A stretch of 42,047 nt of DNA from a virus. The notes under the pieces are model-generated. The model made no database searches. It had not been told where the DNA came from and worked only from the letters and a program-made list of their open reading frames with translations. The stretch lies in IMG/VR virus record IMGVR_UViG_3300025000_000207, positions 1 to 42,047 of that record; one strand, given 5' to 3'. Shown here in pieces: positions 4,488 to 41,129 of this stretch (position 1 is its first letter; every line of letters begins with the position of its first letter). The position numbers and the translations under genes are program-made.

Positions 4488-4918
4488 CAATAACCCACCG
4501 ATCCCCGGTTCGCCGTCAGGCCCCCGGATAAAAGTTCTTCATCCCGCTGCGCCATTTCCCGCCGCGCCTCATTGGCTCCATCCGTCAGCGCCGCCGTTTT
4601 CACCAACCCCATCGTTCGCTGTTGCTGCGCCTGCTGTTGTGGCGCCATGCCCACCTGGTAACGACTCAGGGTCCGGTCCTTAATCCCCGCCGCCGTGTCG
4701 AATCCCTGGCCAATGTAATCGCGGGTATCGGTCAGCCGTGTCGTCATCATGGCCGGATTATCGTACGACTCCATCAGCATGTCTTCAATCGGCAGAAATC
4801 GGCGCTTATAGTCCTCGTACTGAGCCTTGGCCAGCGCCGTTTCGTCCGTCGTGGACGATTTCAATCCCGCCGTGTTGTTCAAAGTATTCAGATAGGTCTG
4901 CCGATCTACGCCCGTCAT
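4487..4918 (-). CDS. Small virion-associated protein, 143 aa
   Basis: ATG 4918 overlaps the preceding TGA as TGATG, and the gene ends the same way, so it is translationally coupled on both sides. The sequence is soluble and helical, with a Tyr/Arg-rich stretch (AQYEDYKRRFLPIEDMLMES) and a Gln run (QQQAQQQ). It resembles its upstream neighbour in having an early Tyr-rich helix followed by a small-residue region, so the two may be paralogous internal virion proteins. Comparable small proteins sit before the ejection proteins in podoviruses. No family name can be given. Confidence 0.6.
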   Translation of the reverse strand: MTGVDRQTYLNTLNNTAGLKSSTTDETALAKAQYEDYKRRFLPIEDMLMESYDNPAMMTTRLTDTRDYIGQGFDTAAGIKDRTLSRYQVGMAPQQQAQQQRTMGLVKTAALTDGANEARREMAQRDEELLSGGLTANRGSVGY

Positions 4919-5484
4919 CACTCCTCCTCGTCCTTCGTCCAGCTCCGCATGCCTATCCCGGCCACGGTACCGATAGCCTCATTCTTCGAACTGGCGTTTG
5001 TCGTCTTGGTATTGAATCGGTCCAACGTCAACCGATTGGCGTATCCCGCTTCCTGACCGGCCAGATCCGACAGCGTACCCGTGCTTTCCGTCGCTTGGCC
5101 CCGGCCCATGGCCACCGCATTGCCGATCTGCACCAATCGCCGATCATCCACCGCGCCGGCCGCCGATGCCATGGCCCGCCCGGTAGCATTTCCCCGCGCC
5201 ATGCCCGAGGTGTTTACACTCCCGGCGAAACGGGCCCCGCCCGCATTCAGCTCGGCGGGATTGGTCTGGGCATCGAATTCAGGGGTCAGCACCGCATTGG
5301 TTATTCCCGTCGCCGACGCTTTCTCCGCGTCCGTCGGTACCGTCAGATCGGCCAGATACTCGTTCTCAAAAACCCGCATATCATCGAGATAGCGGTTCCA
5401 GGTTTCGGCATTCTGCTTTCTCAGTTCCATTTCCAACGCCGTCGGCGGTGGATTTTTAACCTTGCTCGACCCCTTGCTTCCCAT
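4918..5484 (-). CDS. Small virion-associated protein, 188 aa
   Basis: ATG 5484 follows AGAGAGGGAC and lies 28 bases inside the end of the upstream gene. The N-terminus is basic (MGSKGSSKVKNPPP), followed by a Tyr-containing helix (WNRYLDDMRVFENEYLADL). After it comes a long Ala/Gly/Asn-rich region with methionines, and the C-terminus is acidic (WTKDEEE). The pattern resembles internal virion proteins encoded just before the ejection proteins of podoviruses. No catalytic motif is visible. Function is inferred from position and from its likeness to the 4487-4918 product. Confidence 0.6.
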   Translation of the reverse strand: MGSKGSSKVKNPPPTALEMELRKQNAETWNRYLDDMRVFENEYLADLTVPTDAEKASATGITNAVLTPEFDAQTNPAELNAGGARFAGSVNTSGMARGNATGRAMASAAGAVDDRRLVQIGNAVAMGRGQATESTGTLSDLAGQEAGYANRLTLDRFNTKTTNASSKNEAIGTVAGIGMRSWTKDEEE

Positions 5485-5866
5485 GACTCATGTCCCTCTC
5501 TAAAACATATTCGCTATCCCCGAGCATCCCCGTAATCGTCCATCCCAGCCTCACCCAGCCGCGCCGCCGAGAAACACACTGAACTTTTCGGATACCGACT
5601 TCGGCCCCGAGCCGTTCCAGCACCGGCCAATACCGCTCCAGCGTTTTTTTACTTCGGCCATAAAACAACCAGACAAAAATTATCGGATCGGCATCCGGCA
5701 GCCAGTCGGTTCGACACACCATAAACGCATCGGGAGAGACCAGCAGCACCCCTTGGCCCGAATCGATCAACTCGGCAACCTCAGCGGGATCGGCCTTCAG
5801 TTCCGCCAATTCCTCGCGCAGAAACCGCAGATAGTCCGATCCCACCGAAAAACATCTAAATGCCAT
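5456..5866 (-). CDS. GNAT-like small virion protein (T7 gp13-like?), 136 aa
   Basis: ATG 5866 is chosen because GGTGG sits five bases upstream; an in-frame GTG at 5875 is the alternative. The central part alternates strands and helices (GVLLVSPDAFMVCR, DPIIFVWLFYGRS). It then has a segment ending RRRGWVRLGWTITGML, recalling the C-terminal part of GNAT-type acetyltransferases and of the small T7 gp13-type virion proteins. The acetyl-CoA loop is not convincing, so enzymatic activity is doubtful. A perfect 19-bp palindrome lies 11 bases upstream of the start. Confidence 0.5.
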   Translation of the reverse strand: MAFRCFSVGSDYLRFLREELAELKADPAEVAELIDSGQGVLLVSPDAFMVCRTDWLPDADPIIFVWLFYGRSKKTLERYWPVLERLGAEVGIRKVQCVSRRRGWVRLGWTITGMLGDSEYVLERDMSHGKQGVEQG

Positions 5867-25666: not shown

Positions 25667-27193
25667 TTATGCCGTTTTCCATGATCGCTGCCCACGCACG
25701 CCGCCGCGCGCCCGCTGTTCGTGGCGCTGCTGCGAAATCCCCGGGGCCAGGCCAATGCCTCGGGCCAGAGTCTCCGCCGAGTCGTAACCGTGAGAAGCCC
25801 AGTTATGCACCGGCTTTTCCTTGAAGCAACCCATCGTCTCGTCCCACTCCCGCTTGTAGTTATCCAGGCAGCGGATCAGCGGAGCGCACTTCTCCTCATC
25901 GATGTAGCACGACGGCAGAAAGCCGCGCGTCTCGTTGATCGCCGCCATCTTGTCCGGAGTCCGGGGCACCGTGTAGATGTTGGGGATAAAGTCGATCTGT
26001 TCCACCAGCGTTTTGCCGTCCTTCGGCTGCTTGTGTCCGGCGTCGTGGGGCAAATAGTTCCATCCCACCATGTAGCCGCGCTTCTGAATCTCGGCCCAGT
26101 AGTACTCGATCCCCTCACCCGTGCCGTACATGCAGTCGAAAATCCGGTTCACCAGCCCTTGGCGCTGGTGAAAGACGATCCACATCTCGTCGTTCACCCC
26201 GATGTCCCAGGACGTGTTCACCGGCAGCGTCGGCAGGTAGGGCACGCGGGCGATCTGCCCGTTCTTGCGCAGCGCCGTCATCTGCTTGGCCAGGTACGCC
26301 CCCTCCACCGCCGCCTTGAACGCCTCCTCCGGCGTCGAAGGGTGCTCCCTGAAAATCAAATCCTTCAGCGTACGCGACTTCGCCGCGTACCAGCACTTCT
26401 GCCCCTCGTCCAGGTCGATGCCGTGCTTCGTCTTCAGGTCCAGGAAATACTGCGCCAGTTCCTTCGTGACAATCTCGCTCCCCGCCGGCAGCCGGTTGCG
26501 CTTCTCCTCGTGCCAGGCGTAGAAGTGAAACTTGTAGGCCATCTGGTGCAGCGGCCGGCCCGCTTCCGCCCACTTGCGGGCCGCTTCGCTCATCTCGTAG
26601 AACGGCCCCTCCGTTCCCTCCGCCGTCGACTCGATGAAAACGAACGATCCCGCATGAACCGTCTCCAGCGAGCCCGAGACAATCTCCGCCGCCCGGTTCG
26701 GAAACCGCGCGCAGATCTTGCCGAACTCCGAGATATGCAAAAACTGGCAGGTTCCAGAACGCAGCGAATACGCCACTTCGATCGATGAGCCGTTAGGGAA
26801 GGACAGCGCCCGGCTGTTCGACTTGTCCGCCGGCCGCGCCGTCTTCAACCCTTCCGGCAGTTTCTTATAGGGGAACAGTACCTTCCGCTCAAAAATTTTT
26901 CCTACATCAGGCATCGTCTGAGCAATTATCCCCACCGTCTGATTATCGCAGAACAGCGCCTGGTCCAGTCCCAGGATGTCGATGAACGTGGTAAACCCGT
27001 GCTGCCTGGATTTCAAAATCAGATTAAGGTACCACAGCTCCGCGTAGAAGCGCTCCTGAGCCGAGTTCATTTTGAACGGCACAGCCTTCCCCTCGTCCGT
27101 GACGATGGTGTAGAGATTGTTCAGCCGCCAGAGCCGATCTCCAAACTTTTCCCGCACCTCGATTCGGGTATGTTCGCTCGCAGCCGTTGCCAT
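25667..27193 (-). CDS. terL: Terminase large subunit, 508 aa
   Basis: ATG 27193 lies two bases after the terS stop. The ATPase half shows NLILKSRQHGFTTFIDIL with an atypical Walker A (SRQHGFTT, as in T4-like terminases with no GKT), followed by QTVGIIAQT. The Walker B/catalytic segment is QFLHISEFGKI, and FVFIESTAEGTEGPFYEM is the coupling motif. The nuclease half has NTSWDIGVNDEMWIV, WNYLPHDAGHKQ and GYDSAETLARGI, giving the metal-binding aspartates. The enzyme cuts and pumps DNA into the prohead. The last residues are basic and may be extended into the neighbouring repeat block. Confidence 0.92.
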   Translation of the reverse strand: MATAASEHTRIEVREKFGDRLWRLNNLYTIVTDEGKAVPFKMNSAQERFYAELWYLNLILKSRQHGFTTFIDILGLDQALFCDNQTVGIIAQTMPDVGKIFERKVLFPYKKLPEGLKTARPADKSNSRALSFPNGSSIEVAYSLRSGTCQFLHISEFGKICARFPNRAAEIVSGSLETVHAGSFVFIESTAEGTEGPFYEMSEAARKWAEAGRPLHQMAYKFHFYAWHEEKRNRLPAGSEIVTKELAQYFLDLKTKHGIDLDEGQKCWYAAKSRTLKDLIFREHPSTPEEAFKAAVEGAYLAKQMTALRKNGQIARVPYLPTLPVNTSWDIGVNDEMWIVFHQRQGLVNRIFDCMYGTGEGIEYYWAEIQKRGYMVGWNYLPHDAGHKQPKDGKTLVEQIDFIPNIYTVPRTPDKMAAINETRGFLPSCYIDEEKCAPLIRCLDNYKREWDETMGCFKEKPVHNWASHGYDSAETLARGIGLAPGISQQRHEQRARGGVRGQRSWKTA

Positions 27194-27195
27194 CG

Positions 27196-27837
27196 TCAAA
27201 ACTGCCCGCCCTTCTCTTTCACGATGTCCCGGTGCTCATGCCGGCCGGAAATTTCGTTCAGCAGATCCGCCAAACCCGCAGCCCCTTCCTTCGCCGCGTT
27301 CACTCCATCCTTGTGCAGCCCCATAATTCGCGCCATTTCAACGGCCGACTGATGCCGCTGCGGAACCTTGAACAGCACATGAATCCGGCCCTTCGCGTCC
27401 TTCTCGCAGTCCAGATCCAAAATCGACAGCGCTTCCGGACTGATCTCATCCAGCTTACGCGGCCGCAGCCGCCCATCCTTCTCCGCCGAGTAAAACTCAT
27501 CGCGACTAATCGCCAGCACCTTGCCGTGATACTGGAGGACGTCGTCCACCGTCACCGTATAACGCCGCCTCATTTCCTCTCTAATCTGCTCGATACGTCT
27601 CCTAACGTCCTCTTTTTGCAGAAGTTTATGCGCGTTCTTCCGCGCCTGATCCCGCTTCATTTCCGGATTAATCGCCGCCAGGTAGGCCGACGCCGGATTA
27701 TCCTTCCGCAGCACGAACTCCCAGCAGAAACGCTCAAGCCACGGCTTCAGCACAATCACCTCATAACCAAGCTCCTCGGCCATCCCCGGCAACACTGTCT
27801 GCCCAGGTACGCTATTTTCCATAATTGGCTCACTCAT
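27196..27837 (-). CDS. terS: Terminase small subunit, 213 aa
   Basis: ATG 27837 begins MSEPIMENSVPGQ, with a weak RBS. Residues about 30-80 contain an HTH-like helical part (WLERFCWEFVLRKDNPASAY, then AHKLLQKEDVRRRIEQIREE). Central helices include LQYHGKVLAISRDEFYSAEK. Positions and domain order fit the Terminase_2-type small subunits that bind packaging DNA and regulate TerL. The C-terminus (ISGRHEHRDIVKEKGGQF) is basic and probably contacts TerL. Function is strongly supported by the neighbour. Confidence 0.85.
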   Translation of the reverse strand: MSEPIMENSVPGQTVLPGMAEELGYEVIVLKPWLERFCWEFVLRKDNPASAYLAAINPEMKRDQARKNAHKLLQKEDVRRRIEQIREEMRRRYTVTVDDVLQYHGKVLAISRDEFYSAEKDGRLRPRKLDEISPEALSILDLDCEKDAKGRIHVLFKVPQRHQSAVEMARIMGLHKDGVNAAKEGAAGLADLLNEISGRHEHRDIVKEKGGQF

Positions 27838-29474: not shown

Positions 29475-30488
29475 CTATGCCGACTTCAACACCATCATCT
29501 GTGGCCGCGAATCCAACGGACTCACCACATCCGTCTTCCGAGGCAGCAGATGCAGATAAATCATCGTCGTTTTCACATCGTTATGTCCCAGCAATTCCTG
29601 TAGCCGCCTCAATGCCACCTCATGCGACCCTTCCGCGTTCTCCAGCCAGTGCGTCGCAAACGAATGCCGAAACGTATGGCAACTCGCCTTCTTGTTAATT
29701 CTGGCCGCCAAAATCGCCCGCCGCACCCGTTTCTGCACCGCCGTCTTATGCACATGGTAAAGTTTTCCAAGCCATTCCGGTTCCGCCACCTTTTTCCCTA
29801 TTCGTTCCCGCACCGGACCCGCCGCCGGGAACAACCAAAACCATTCCCACGAATAGGGAGCGTTCGGAAATTTCCGGTCCAGCCGGCCAGGAAGCGAAAC
29901 TGGAATGTTTTTTTCCGCGTAGTCTCGCTGCACATCGCCCAGCCAGCGCAAATGCCTCTCCATCGGCGCCACCAACAGTTCAGGCAGCGGCACAACCCGG
30001 TCCTTATCCCCCTTACCCTCACGCACCATGACCATGCGGCGATCCAGGTCGACGTCCTTAACCCGTAACCGGCATGTCTCTTCCAGGCGCAACCCGCAGC
30101 CATACATGAACGCACCCCACAACCATCCCGCACCATTCAATCGGTCCAGTACCCGCCACGCCTCCTGTCGGCTGAATACCTCCGGCAACCGCTGCGGTCG
30201 CCGAGACCGAAGAAAAGAAACATCTCCCAACTCCATCTTCAAAACCCGCTTGTAAAAATAAATAATCGCGCAAAGAGCCTGCTTCTGTGTCGCCGCCGAA
30301 ACATTGTCCTGCGTCACTATCCGCGTCAAAAACTGCCCCAATTTTTCCTCATGCGTTTCAGCGTCGTTCCCGGAAAGGAATACAGCATATTTCGCAAGCC
30401 ATTCCATATACGCCTTGATTGTCCACCGGCTCTTGCGCTGGAGGCGCATGCACTCATACATCCGCCTGTCCGCTTCCGCCTTTGTCAT
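29475..30488 (-). CDS. Integron-integrase-like tyrosine recombinase, 337 aa
   Basis: ATG 30488 follows GGAAAAGGGAGGTGTGGC. The active-site residues are visible: Arg134 (GCGLRLEETCRLRVKDVDL), Lys near 159-161 (VREGKGDKDRV), His271 and Arg274 (CHTFRHSFATHW), His302 (LQELLGHNDVKTT) and Tyr311 (TTMIYLHLLPR). Between boxes it has SLPGRLDRKFPNAPYSWEWF, WLFPAAG and the terminal VVSPLDSR. These correspond to the extra IntI segment and GVRSPLD-type end of integron integrases. A 5-residue insert follows FATHWLEN. It would integrate the phage. No cassette array is seen. Being beside an inverted-arm site strengthens the integrase role. Confidence 0.85.
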   Translation of the reverse strand: MTKAEADRRMYECMRLQRKSRWTIKAYMEWLAKYAVFLSGNDAETHEEKLGQFLTRIVTQDNVSAATQKQALCAIIYFYKRVLKMELGDVSFLRSRRPQRLPEVFSRQEAWRVLDRLNGAGWLWGAFMYGCGLRLEETCRLRVKDVDLDRRMVMVREGKGDKDRVVPLPELLVAPMERHLRWLGDVQRDYAEKNIPVSLPGRLDRKFPNAPYSWEWFWLFPAAGPVRERIGKKVAEPEWLGKLYHVHKTAVQKRVRRAILAARINKKASCHTFRHSFATHWLENAEGSHEVALRRLQELLGHNDVKTTMIYLHLLPRKTDVVSPLDSRPQMMVLKSA

Positions 30489-30531: not shown

Positions 30532-30558
30532 ATTAGACAGCCGCATGGACCGTCTAAT
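30532..30558. other. Candidate att core: inverted 11-bp arms with 5-bp spacer
   Basis: ATTAGACAGCC, a 5-base GCATG centre, and GACCGTCTAAT: the arms match at 9 of 11 positions as inverted repeats (seven contiguous). It lies in the 75-bp gap between the recombinase start and the methyltransferase stop. Core sites of tyrosine recombinases have this form. It could instead be an operator for the recombinase gene. Confidence 0.5.
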
Positions 30559-30563
30559 TGATG

Positions 30564-31472
30564 TTATAATCCGAATCGCGCTGACAACCTCAACCATGCC
30601 TCAGCGTGGCATCTTGGCACCTGTCCATTTCCAAGGGCTTGCAGTCTGTCCACCCGAGCGGCCACCCCATGAGCCACTCGACCCATTCCGGGTTCAACTG
30701 TCCACCAGTTTTCTCGCCAGAACGCAGCAATGCCCCCGGTATATTGGCGTGCTTCACTTGGGAAGGCGGCAGCGTTGAGTTCTTCGAGTCGTTGACTGTC
30801 GGTGTCGGCCACTTCGTCACCGCCGTTCTCAAGATCAACCCGCCAGCCCTGCCGGAGCATCCCGGCCCGCCAGTTCCGTCCGATTTCGTAGGAGTCGGCC
30901 ACGTCAAATAACTCCGCGCCGATCTCTCCTTGCCCTTGTCCGCTCCCCGCATGTGGTGCGCCTTCGTATTGCTCGCCAGAGGTGTAGGCAACAATCCATA
31001 TTCTGTCTCGTTGGTGCGGCGCTCCCACGTCAACCGCTCCAACCACTCCCCATTCCGCATCGTACCCCATCGCGGCCAGGTCTCCAAGAACACGACCAAG
31101 CCCCCGAACAGTGAGCATTGGCGAGTTTTCCACAAAGCAGAAGGTTGGTCGTACTTCACTGATGATTCGGGCCATTTCCACCCACAACCCAGACCGTGCG
31201 CCGTCAAGTCCTTCACCGGTTCCGGCTGCGGAAATGTCCTGGCAGGGGAAACCGCCAGAAACCACGTCAACAATGCCTCGCCAAGGTCTGCCGTCAAATG
31301 TGCAAACGTCATCCCAAATTGGGAAAGGCGGCAAAAATCCGTCATTTTGTCGGGCGGCAAGTACGCTTGCGGCGTAGGGATTCCGCTCAACAGCGCAGAC
31401 GGTGCGCCATCCAAGCAGTTTACCGCCAAGTATTCCTCCACCAGCACCCGCGAATAAAGCCAACTCATTCAA
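30564..31472 (-). CDS. C5-cytosine DNA methyltransferase, 302 aa
   Basis: ATG 31472 follows AAGGGGGTAGATTTG. Motif I is LFAGAGGG (residues 6-13), motif IV is GGFPCQDIS with catalytic Cys77, motif VI is FVENSP (113-118), motif VIII is QRDRIWIVA, and motif X is LGNGQVP near the C-terminus. The specificity region is short. It lacks a restriction partner in the neighbourhood, so it probably protects phage DNA from host enzymes. Its DNA is also open in another frame for almost its full length (30590-31468). The gene is upstream of the integrase and downstream of a DUF5131-like gene. Confidence 0.9.
   Translation of the reverse strand: MNELALFAGAGGGILGGKLLGWRTVCAVERNPYAASVLAARQNDGFLPPFPIWDDVCTFDGRPWRGIVDVVSGGFPCQDISAAGTGEGLDGARSGLWVEMARIISEVRPTFCFVENSPMLTVRGLGRVLGDLAAMGYDAEWGVVGAVDVGAPHQRDRIWIVAYTSGEQYEGAPHAGSGQGQGEIGAELFDVADSYEIGRNWRAGMLRQGWRVDLENGGDEVADTDSQRLEELNAAAFPSEARQYTGGIAAFWRENWWTVEPGMGRVAHGVAARVDRLQALGNGQVPRCHAEAWLRLSARFGL
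30590..31468 (-). CDS. Overlapping 292-aa frame inside the methyltransferase gene
   Basis: ATG 31468 starts four bases after the methyltransferase ATG and may share its RBS; the frame is open for 293 codons. The translation has PTPQAYLPPDKMTDFCRLSQ, FGMTFAHLTADLGEALLTWF, WPTPTVNDSK, LNPEWVEWLMGWPLGWTDCK. I remember WPTPT...LNPxWVEWLMGxPxGWTD proteins as a frequent unnamed group in phage-derived databases. Comparison shows those motifs are the other-frame reading of methyltransferase phrases: WPTPTVND overlays VADTDSQR and GWTDCKPLEMD overlays RVDRLQALGNG. It is either true overprinting or a recurrent annotation artefact. Confidence 0.4.
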   Translation of the reverse strand: MSWLYSRVLVEEYLAVNCLDGAPSALLSGIPTPQAYLPPDKMTDFCRLSQFGMTFAHLTADLGEALLTWFLAVSPARTFPQPEPVKDLTAHGLGCGWKWPESSVKYDQPSALWKTRQCSLFGGLVVFLETWPRWGTMRNGEWLERLTWERRTNETEYGLLPTPLASNTKAHHMRGADKGKERSARSYLTWPTPTKSDGTGGPGCSGRAGGLILRTAVTKWPTPTVNDSKNSTLPPSQVKHANIPGALLRSGEKTGGQLNPEWVEWLMGWPLGWTDCKPLEMDRCQDATLRHG

Positions 31473-31597
31473 ATCTACCCCCTTAAAACCTTATGGCCTA
31501 TCGGCCAAGCGCGATTCGGATTCTAACCAAACATTCGACCTGACCGATGAACCCGGCAGGTCAATTCAAGCCGTTATCTCCATCTCCGCCCCCCTAC

Positions 31598-32787: not shown

Positions 32788-32851
32788 CGGCCCATCTCTC
32801 CTTCCACCGTATCGCAATAAGGCCGCAAACGGTGACGCTCAAGCGTTGGCT

Positions 32852-34629: not shown

Positions 34630-34678
34630 GTCGTCTCTCCCTGGCTGCTCATCAGCGCCGGGCCACCACGCCCGCCGG

Positions 34679-34710
34679 ATTATTCCGCCGTTTGCGACCG
34701 GCGGAATAAT
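34679..34710. other. Intergenic hairpin, 12-bp stem
   Basis: ATTATTCCGCCG pairs perfectly with CGGCGGAATAAT around 8 bases, between the SPFH gene and the 34629 gene. No T-run follows on either strand. It is probably an RNA-stability structure or operator. Confidence 0.6.
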
Positions 34711-34734
34711 TTCGCATCGTTAACCGCCTTGTGG

Positions 34735-35574
34735 CTACTTTGGCAACTGAATCAGCGGCGTGGCACCACCCGCTGCGAGCTGCGTTGTCGGTAGTGTGCC
34801 GTTCCATTTTTCAATCCACTTCAGCTGCACGTACTCGGCGCCGCCCTGCTTGTTAATCGCCTCCGCCTGGGCCTTGATCGCTTCCGCCTCGGCTTTCGCT
34901 GTGGCAATCCGCTGTTCGCCCTCGGTGCGAATCCGCGCAAGGTCGTGCTCGGCTTTCTTCGCCTGCTGCTCCGCCGTGACCTTCGCCTCGACAGCAACGC
35001 TGAAGCCCTTGGAAAAAGCGAAATTCGTGATGTTCACGTCTTTCACTGTCACATAGTGGGGCTGCAACTTCTCGCGCACGCTGGTCAGCAGTTTGTCGCG
35101 CACCGAAGTCCTCTGAGTGATAAGCTCTTCGGCCGTATGCCCAGCCGCCGCCGACTTAAAAGCTTCTTCAATCACCGGTTGCAGGGCTCGCGCCTGCAGC
35201 GTCTCCACGTCCCGATAGTTTCGGTAAACGTCCTTGGCGTCCACACGGTCAACGCTGAAGATCACGGCAACCTCGGCGGTTACGCTTTGCAGGTCGCGCG
35301 TCCCGGCGTCAATGCCCTTGCCTGCAAAAGTCAGGGTCTGCGTGTTCACGTCGTGCGCTGTCTCAATCAACGGCAATTTCAAGTGAAAGCCTTCTTCGTA
35401 AATAGTTTCCTGAATACTGCCGGCGCGTGTAATGACGCCAGAGTAGCCAGGCGGGACGATGAACCACGAACCCAGCGCCAGAAACAGGCCGACCAACATC
35501 AGGATAACGGCGCCGATAATTCGCCCAAGGCGTAGGCCGTCAATCCGGCCCCGTTCGTCTCTGCTCACAAACAT
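34735..35574 (-). CDS. SPFH/prohibitin-family membrane protein, 279 aa
   Basis: ATG 35574 is chosen for its GAGGAGCAAGACT; an in-frame TTG at 35589 would add five residues. Residues about 16-45 form one membrane helix (IIGAVILMLVGLFLALGSWF), then the SPFH domain: VPPGYSGVITRAGSIQETIY, EEGFHLKLPLIETAHDVNTQ, EVAVIFSVDRVDAKDVYRNY. A coiled-coil helix follows (QQAKKAEHDLARIRTEGEQR). Prohibitin-like proteins form membrane rings and can guard against host proteases such as FtsH. Its job in this phage is unknown; with the adjacent lipoprotein it may alter the host membrane or exclude other phages. Confidence 0.85.
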   Translation of the reverse strand: MFVSRDERGRIDGLRLGRIIGAVILMLVGLFLALGSWFIVPPGYSGVITRAGSIQETIYEEGFHLKLPLIETAHDVNTQTLTFAGKGIDAGTRDLQSVTAEVAVIFSVDRVDAKDVYRNYRDVETLQARALQPVIEEAFKSAAAGHTAEELITQRTSVRDKLLTSVREKLQPHYVTVKDVNITNFAFSKGFSVAVEAKVTAEQQAKKAEHDLARIRTEGEQRIATAKAEAEAIKAQAEAINKQGGAEYVQLKWIEKWNGTLPTTQLAAGGATPLIQLPK

Positions 35575-35626
35575 AGTCTTGCTCCTCAAAAATTGTAGCG
35601 CCTCTCGGGGAGGCGGCTAACCTTTC

Positions 35627-35659
35627 ACGGCACCGGCCGCCAGCGGCAGCCGGTGCCGT
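35627..35659. other. Intergenic hairpin, 11-bp stem
   Basis: ACGGCACCGGC pairs perfectly with GCCGGTGCCGT around 11 bases, between the lipoprotein and SPFH genes. No T-run follows on the minus strand. It could set the relative expression of the two genes. Confidence 0.6.
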
Positions 35660-35679
35660 CAATCGTTAAAAGTTAAAAA

Positions 35680-39949: not shown

Positions 39950-39961
39950 GATAAAATTAAA

Positions 39962-39981
39962 TGACATTGGCACTTATGTCA
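39962..39981. promoter_or_regulatory. Inverted repeat TGACAT-N8-ATGTCA at the CI start
   Basis: TGACAT (39962-39967) and ATGTCA (39976-39981) are perfect inverted arms, and TGACATCGGCA near 39992 is a close direct copy. It overlaps the CI start codon at 39976, suggesting autoregulation. Confidence 0.5.
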
Positions 39982-40377
39982 ACAGAAAAAATGACATCGG
40001 CATCCGTAGATGCAATCATAGACAGAATGATTTTTGCCGCGAAAGCCAAGAACCAGCAGGATATGATTGAAAAAATTGGCCTCTCCAGTGGAATAGCCAG
40101 TAAGTGGAGAACTCGAAAAAAAGTGCCAGAGTCCAGCATTTTGAAGGTCGCCAAGGTCATGGGCGTCAGTTCCGAATGGCTCGCAACCGGCGAAGGCGAA
40201 ATGCTTCAATACGCGGGAGTGCCCGCGGTAACCCAGATTCATCGCCGGGTGTCCGACGAAGAATGGCAACTGATCGAGTACTTTGAATGTCTAGGCGAAG
40301 AGCAGCGCCAGTCACTCTTGATCGTGGCCAAAACGATGGCAATGGGTTTACCCGGCAAATCGCCCAAAAAAGACTAG
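39976..40377 (+). CDS. CI-type repressor, HTH-only, 133 aa
   Basis: The product starts MSTEKMTSASVDAIIDRM; ATG 39961 would add five residues but covers the operator. Residues about 9-72 are the Phage_CI_repr HTH domain: AIIDRMIFAAKAKNQQDMIE, then KIGLSSGIASKWRTRKKVPE and VMGVSSEWLATGEGEM. The C-terminal part is short (EEWQLIEYFECLGEEQRQSL) and lacks a LexA-type peptidase, so inactivation cannot be by self-cleavage. No RBS stands before the start, which may point to a leaderless mRNA. A terminator follows. Confidence 0.85.
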   Translation: MSTEKMTSASVDAIIDRMIFAAKAKNQQDMIEKIGLSSGIASKWRTRKKVPESSILKVAKVMGVSSEWLATGEGEMLQYAGVPAVTQIHRRVSDEEWQLIEYFECLGEEQRQSLLIVAKTMAMGLPGKSPKKD

Positions 40378-40671: not shown

Positions 40672-40713
40672 CTGAGTTTATCGTCATGTCAACGGAAAAA
40701 TTAACTGAGTTTA
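40672..40713. promoter_or_regulatory. Direct repeats CTGAGTTTA around the second repressor start
   Basis: CTGAGTTTA occurs at 40672-40680 and 40705-40713 on the plus strand, and inverted (TAAACTCAG) at 40882-40890 inside the gene. The first two straddle the start codon. This suggests autoregulatory sites. Confidence 0.45.
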
Positions 40714-41129
40714 GCTCTCGATTGAAAGAAGCCAGAGAGCAAAAAAAACTAAGCAAGGCCGAAACAGCTCGGCTCGTTGGCGTTTCGGCGGCGTACATCG
40801 GCCAGCTGGAATCCATGACAGAACTTTACAAAAAAACACCAAGCGTTCTTTTAATCGAAAAGCTTTCCAATGTTCTTGAAATAAACTCAGTTTGGTTATC
40901 CAGCGGCGAGGGCGAAATAAGACCACCACCCTCGGTCGCCGAAACAAAATCGGGCTACGGCAATCAACCCCTGACCGCCGACGAGATGTACCTGATCAAA
41001 ACCTATCGCAAACTGAACCAGGCAGAAAAAGACAAAGTTATTGAAATTGCCGAACTGTATTGTGGAGCGAAAGAGTCGTGGAAAGACGTCGGAGGGGGCT
41101 CAGTCTCGAAGGAATCGAACTCAAAATAG
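40686..41129 (+). CDS. Second XRE-type repressor-like protein, 147 aa
   Basis: ATG 40686 begins MSTEKLTEFSSRLKEAREQK, nearly the same opening as the CI gene (ATGTCAACrGAAAAA). The HTH is KLSKAETARLVGVSAAYIGQ LESM with ELYKKTPSVLLIEKLSNVLE; INSVWLSSGEGEI closes it as in CI-type proteins. The tail (TADEMYLIKTYRKLNQAEKD) carries a helix and no peptidase. No RBS is seen, as for CI. It may regulate an alternative state or the accessory genes. Confidence 0.75.
   Translation: MSTEKLTEFSSRLKEAREQKKLSKAETARLVGVSAAYIGQLESMTELYKKTPSVLLIEKLSNVLEINSVWLSSGEGEIRPPPSVAETKSGYGNQPLTADEMYLIKTYRKLNQAEKDKVIEIAELYCGAKESWKDVGGGSVSKESNSK

Follow-up and report, generated by a model that had tools for sequence, protein, structure and literature searches.

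Whether an integron-type integrase gene carried by a phage still serves an integron there, or has become the phage's own integrase, is the question raised by the locus described here. Integrons are commonly viewed as bacterial devices that turn up in phages only occasionally. The gene, intI, lies on the minus strand at 29475–30488 of the window, i.e., the whole 42,047-nt (42-kb) virus record that was analysed, which also encodes a P22-type portal, Phage_capsid_3 and a terminase. The window very probably carries a phage-borne integron made up of an integron integrase (IntI), its own attI and attC-bounded cassettes, the cassettes being inverted. This reading is drawn from the sequence, in which IntI membership, the attI-like site, attC, the cassette boundaries, a single phage clade and the genomic position can each be recognized.

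The integrase and its relatives

The intI ORF is uninterrupted and codes for 337 aa. The protein scores 296.6 bits with TIGR02249, the NCBI curated profile for integron integrases (cut-off 265), and only 128 and 120 bits with the XerC and XerD profiles, far under their cut-offs of 335 and 330. Its nearest solved relative by sequence is the Vibrio IntIA, VchIntIA (2A3V; 188 bits vs 95 for XerA), which is also the top fold match of the predicted structure. The mean pLDDT of this model, based on 38 sequences, is 89.9; an earlier model built from only 11 close sequences had reached 58. R134, K159, H271, R274, H302 and Y311, the full R-K-H-R-H-Y catalytic set, are invariant across the 38 sequences. 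The IntI-specific insert between the second and third motifs, LPGRLDRKFPNAPYSWEWFWLFP, aligns with LPTALKEKYPNAPYEFRWHYLFP of VchIntIA and is invariant or nearly so among these relatives.

A tree of 78 proteins unites 21 IntIs from phages and prophages in one clade with a support of 100/100. This clade falls within the integron IntIs, where those of Planctomycetota and Desulfuromonadia are its sister group (86/87), and the Xer proteins are separate from it. Judged by profile, fold and tree, the ORF is a true integron integrase. The original prediction had named it as such from the tyrosine recombinase residues and from the segments VSLPGRLDRKFPNAPYSWEWFWLFPAAG and VVSPLD, both of which are present in the ORF. 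The structure prediction that it proposed for the insert and the phylogeny against XerC/D bear the assignment out, while its suggestion of an ancestor-like IntI does not agree with the nested position of the phage clade.

The carriers are diverse. They show at least four large terminase types, and one of them (L006) is Mu-like. Where hosts are known from MAGs, they are Geobacter-like Desulfuromonadia and related bacteria. The 846-aa large terminase of another record (L061, 12456–14993) has terminase profile matches on either side of an unrelated stretch, and seems from this pattern to be split by an intein-like insertion.

In the window, intI is placed between accessory genes (C5 methyltransferase, DUF5131 and DHH protein) and packaging genes, and not in a replication block as had been assumed. 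Downstream, two ORFs without Pfam match separate it from the packaging module with the small (27196–27837, minus strand; PF03592, phrog_51) and large (25667–27199, minus strand; phrog_2) terminase subunits. The same location just upstream of the packaging genes is taken by the integron lineage in ∼20 otherwise differing phages and prophages. The gene was rightly described as far from the repressor, as repressor-like HTH genes are found ∼10 kb off at 39961–40377 and 40686–41129. A tRNA search returned none.

The attI-like site, attC and cassettes

An attI-like site (30532–30566, minus strand) lies immediately 5′ of intI. It reads TAACATCAATTAGACGGTCCATGCGGCTGTCTAAT on the intI strand and has the core GATG|TTA on the opposite strand. 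A common site directly 5′ of intI is conserved in ∼20 phages, with the shared form TAACATC-ATTAGAC-GCCA..TGGC-GT-TAA on the intI strand, and similarity vanishes right upstream of it. In three pairs of records with similar intI genes (L055/L056, L060/L062 and L009/L051) the (A)TAAC of the site is the exact point from which the DNA is similar, and the similarity stops close to the end of intI. Past this edge, L009 and L051 share a few short, weaker matches, and L060 and L062 have one attC in common. A similarity edge at this place is the trace expected from recombination at attI, and edge and conserved site together point to the attI beside intI that belongs to a complete integron.

Upstream of this site there is an attC (31519–31580), with its canonical (top) strand on the plus strand, opposite to intI and the cassette gene. 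It was found with R1, a sequence model made from 24 sites of other phages with the window left out of training. R1 scores 30.4 bits at 31522–31578 (E 3.3e-7 for a search of 558 kb), at a distance of 1.03 kb from the start codon of intI; this is the only good match in the window and nothing else comes close. The earlier statement that no attC pair occurs nearby is thereby superseded, given this attC and the attI-like site at 30532–30566.

The 965-nt gene cassette at 30563–31527 (minus strand) has ends that are complementary at 19/20 positions, more than for any other pair of this kind in the window; the best value in dinucleotide shuffles (n = 40) was 16/20. Usual R boxes are 7 nt, and the complementarity seen here is much longer. 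It would lengthen the attC stem of the free circle. The cassette gene encodes a C5-cytosine DNA methyltransferase (30564–31472, minus strand; PF00145, E 1e-30; phrog_363), 52% identical to the product of the final cassette gene of phage L051, and its stop codon TAA falls inside the terminal TAAC.

On its other side the attC borders a DUF5131 phage gene (31598–32542, minus strand; PF07505, phrog_2045), which is probably the gene of the next cassette, judging from its place; the far end of that cassette was not found in the window. Beyond the DUF5131 gene, as its boundary on that side, a probable decayed attC lies at 32804–32849 (minus strand), where AACGCTTGAGCGTCACC is identical to 17 nt of an attC of L062. 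Its R′ half is lost and it is not matched by R1. In total the window holds one clear attC and one certain cassette, and thereby the attC-bounded cassette of a complete integron.

A type II hammerhead ribozyme was also detected in the window (34639–34717, minus strand; 59.5 bits vs a Rfam gathering score of 37), with a Band_7/SPFH gene on one side and a small ORF on the other. The Band_7 gene (34719–35621, minus strand) has the flanking ends GTTAGCCGCC and GTTAACCGCC, which match at 9/10 positions, a value within chance, and the stretch may possibly be an old cassette ending at the hammerhead. A hairpin at 35616–35670, which also flanks the Band_7 gene, was considered as an attC and dropped as too weak.

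The intergenic DNA of the relatives contains attC-like arrays upstream of the IntI gene, with up to eight sites. These attCs are short (∼50–70 nt) and all of one type. We could delimit 33 cassettes over 13 records, the window included. In 30 of them the intI strand carries the longest ORF, and the stop codon usually lies inside the terminal TAAC. Among 29 distinct cassettes the end complementarity averages 8.2/10, compared with 5.9 for random pairing, and none of 10,000 permutations came as high; one apparent cassette, in L008, fails this test (4/10). Exact duplicate cassettes are present in L057 and in L062. Recognisable cargo consists mostly of DNA methyltransferases, together with small accessory genes, and kindred cassette genes occur in phages where their neighbours differ (L003/L060, 66% identity; L007/L062, 45%; window/L051, 52%). 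In L003, L005, L052 and L054 the attI-like site is present and no attC was detected in the sequence examined.

The attC seeds were picked by eye and with a hairpin scanner that is prone to many false positives, and the conclusions on attCs and cassettes are based on R1, end complementarity and conserved boundaries. When the attCs were aligned with MAFFT, loops and bulges put the arms out of register and RNAalifold therefore gave no common structure, for which reason R1 is a sequence-only model. Sites of the phage type also occur on two further contigs. The phage contig L127 (1–4420) has four of them, with a more distant IntI (30–37% identical), upstream of a terminase small subunit gene and in the layout of the window lineage; it is possibly a second phage IntI lineage. 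The viral contig L126 (141–4103) has six, together with a C5 methyltransferase cassette; no intI was found within the 14 kb examined.

Since attC is quasi-palindromic, its strand has to be read from its asymmetry, and our orientation call is of this kind. In canonical attCs read on the ORF strand, a C precedes the GTT of R′ in 15 of 17 cases. For the phage sites the count of C at this position is 28/29 when they are read against the direction of the ORFs and 0/29 when they are read along it. R1 matches class 1 attCs solely on their ORF strand (3/3). The extra-helical bases favour the same arm, with 13 vs 4 for the phage sites and 5 vs 2 for canonical bottom strands, and the attI-like site at the intI end is consistent with inverted cassettes. 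By these asymmetries, attI and attC are arranged relative to intI as in ordinary integrons, and it is the cassette genes that are inverted with respect to the canonical attC strand, running toward attI and intI. The usual reading of cassette genes outward from attI, which is not strictly defining for an integron, is not seen in the phage integrons.

The role of IntI in the phage

From this arrangement we infer a reaction in which the phage IntI joins the attI before its own gene to attC sites, the latter probably in the form of folded single strands. Recombination between attI and attC would allow cassettes to be captured, shuffled and lost. Cassettes, intI and packaging genes are all read in one direction, with the cassettes upstream of intI. 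As the inverted cassette genes point to attI and intI, they would be expressed by a phage transcript running through them and not from an integron Pc promoter. The cargo, largely DNA methyltransferases and small accessory genes, probably has an anti-restriction function.

IntI itself could instead have become the lysogeny integrase, with the attI-like site serving as attP. We regard this as unlikely, although the window phage has repressor-like genes and no other tyrosine or serine recombinase was found in the 42-kb window; the record may be a fragment, and a missing second integrase proves little. A lysogeny integrase distinct from IntI, or a Mu-type transposase, is encoded by several relatives. 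In the prophages L009 and L011 the gene of an ordinary integrase lies beside the repressor, L006 has a Mu-type transposase, and L054, L055, L059 and L062 encode further tyrosine recombinases besides IntI. On the contigs of the prophages L008, L009 and L011, intI has phage genes to either side; the locus is internal and not terminal, and an attP beside the integrase with the prophage junction at that place was not found. The sites are moreover attI and attC with cassettes, not a single phage–host junction. Because of the separate enzymes of the relatives, IntI is most likely the cassette recombinase and not the integrase of the phage. The original prediction, in which a captured IntI had come to serve as the integrase of the phage, is not supported in this form, given the retained attI-like site and attC cassettes and the separate integrases in relatives. 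Since no other recombinase was found in the window, a double role of IntI in this phage, for cassettes and lysogeny, is conceivable and may apply.

Two other explanations concern the origin of the locus and the use of the enzyme, and both seem less probable still. A piece of a host chromosomal integron might have been taken up by imprecise prophage excision, the route of integron capture in the Vibrio phages p16 and p42 (PMC9892861). Integron integrases are indeed widespread in the host class, where 112 of 277 genomes exceed the cut-off, and captures of host integrons are already known (PMC9892861). We nevertheless find this very improbable, as the IntIs of diverse phages, 21 in all, group in a single clade that has an attI of its own and recurs at the same genomic place, and R1 gave a single weak match (L110, E 0.003) in 12 genome stretches. 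The nearest kin of the window IntI are likewise other phages and prophages, which is not the pattern of a captured host integron. The main task of IntI might also be to resolve Holliday junctions or dimers while the phage replicates, with the attC-like hairpins as relics. This would suit the position of intI just before the packaging genes and the several phages with few or no detectable attCs. It is the least probable of the explanations considered, as sharp cassette boundaries, duplicate cassettes and changing cargo beside a conserved attI indicate cassette traffic.

Relation to known integrons and meaning for phages

The phage integrons resemble class 1, Vibrio, Desulfuromonadia and Planctomycetota integrons in the IntI insert and in having attI by intI. 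They also share attC-bounded cassettes, complementary cassette ends and the attC orientation relative to intI with chromosomal and mobile integrons. Unlike these, they reside in phages, their cassette genes are inverted relative to attC and share the direction of intI, which is followed by packaging genes, and the attCs are short (∼50–70 nt) and of one type. Co-directional intI and cassette genes are also known from Treponema-type integrons, where intI points to attI and the cassettes come after intI (PMC3607928); here, in contrast, the cassettes precede attI and intI, and intI is transcribed away from the attI-like site.

Integrons and attC clusters (CALINs) with methyltransferase cassettes have been described in phages before (Qi et al., 2023; PMC9892861). 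The intact phage integrons of that study either resembled host or class 1 integrons or were derived from them, and in its virulent phages the attC clusters lacked an accompanying intI. Integron parts in phages and methyltransferase cassettes are common to both data sets, whereas the integrons described here have one phage-specific IntI clade, their own attI and a recurrent genomic place. Virus Rctr41k (KX853513, L050) likewise has an IntI-like gene (4680–5678) in the phage early region. Its protein is unlike the phage IntI clade and is found elsewhere in the tree, grouped with Chloroflexota IntI-like proteins. R1 found no site of the phage attC type in Rctr41k or in Tetrasphaera phage TJE1. 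Our literature search, which may have missed preprints and closed-access work, turned up no earlier description of an IntI clade specific to phages, nor of cassettes in inverted orientation. Phage integrons are thus already known, and what is new, as far as sequence comparison goes, is a phage-dedicated IntI lineage with an inverted-cassette layout.

A wider reading, on which our confidence is evenly divided, is that of a dedicated phage integron lineage with a private pool of inverted cassettes, a plug-in site through which unrelated phages would exchange anti-restriction genes. Its users would be podovirus, siphovirus-like and Mu-like phages, with the site recurring before the packaging genes. 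With genes that would lie antisense to Pc, phage cassettes would then be largely useless to host integrons. The inverted cassettes pose the question whether bacterial and phage cassette pools are kept apart by orientation. If the lineage is indeed phage-adapted, phages would operate their own cassette exchange for accessory genes such as DNA methyltransferases, and this would account for some of the mosaicism that phage genomes show at their early/late boundary.
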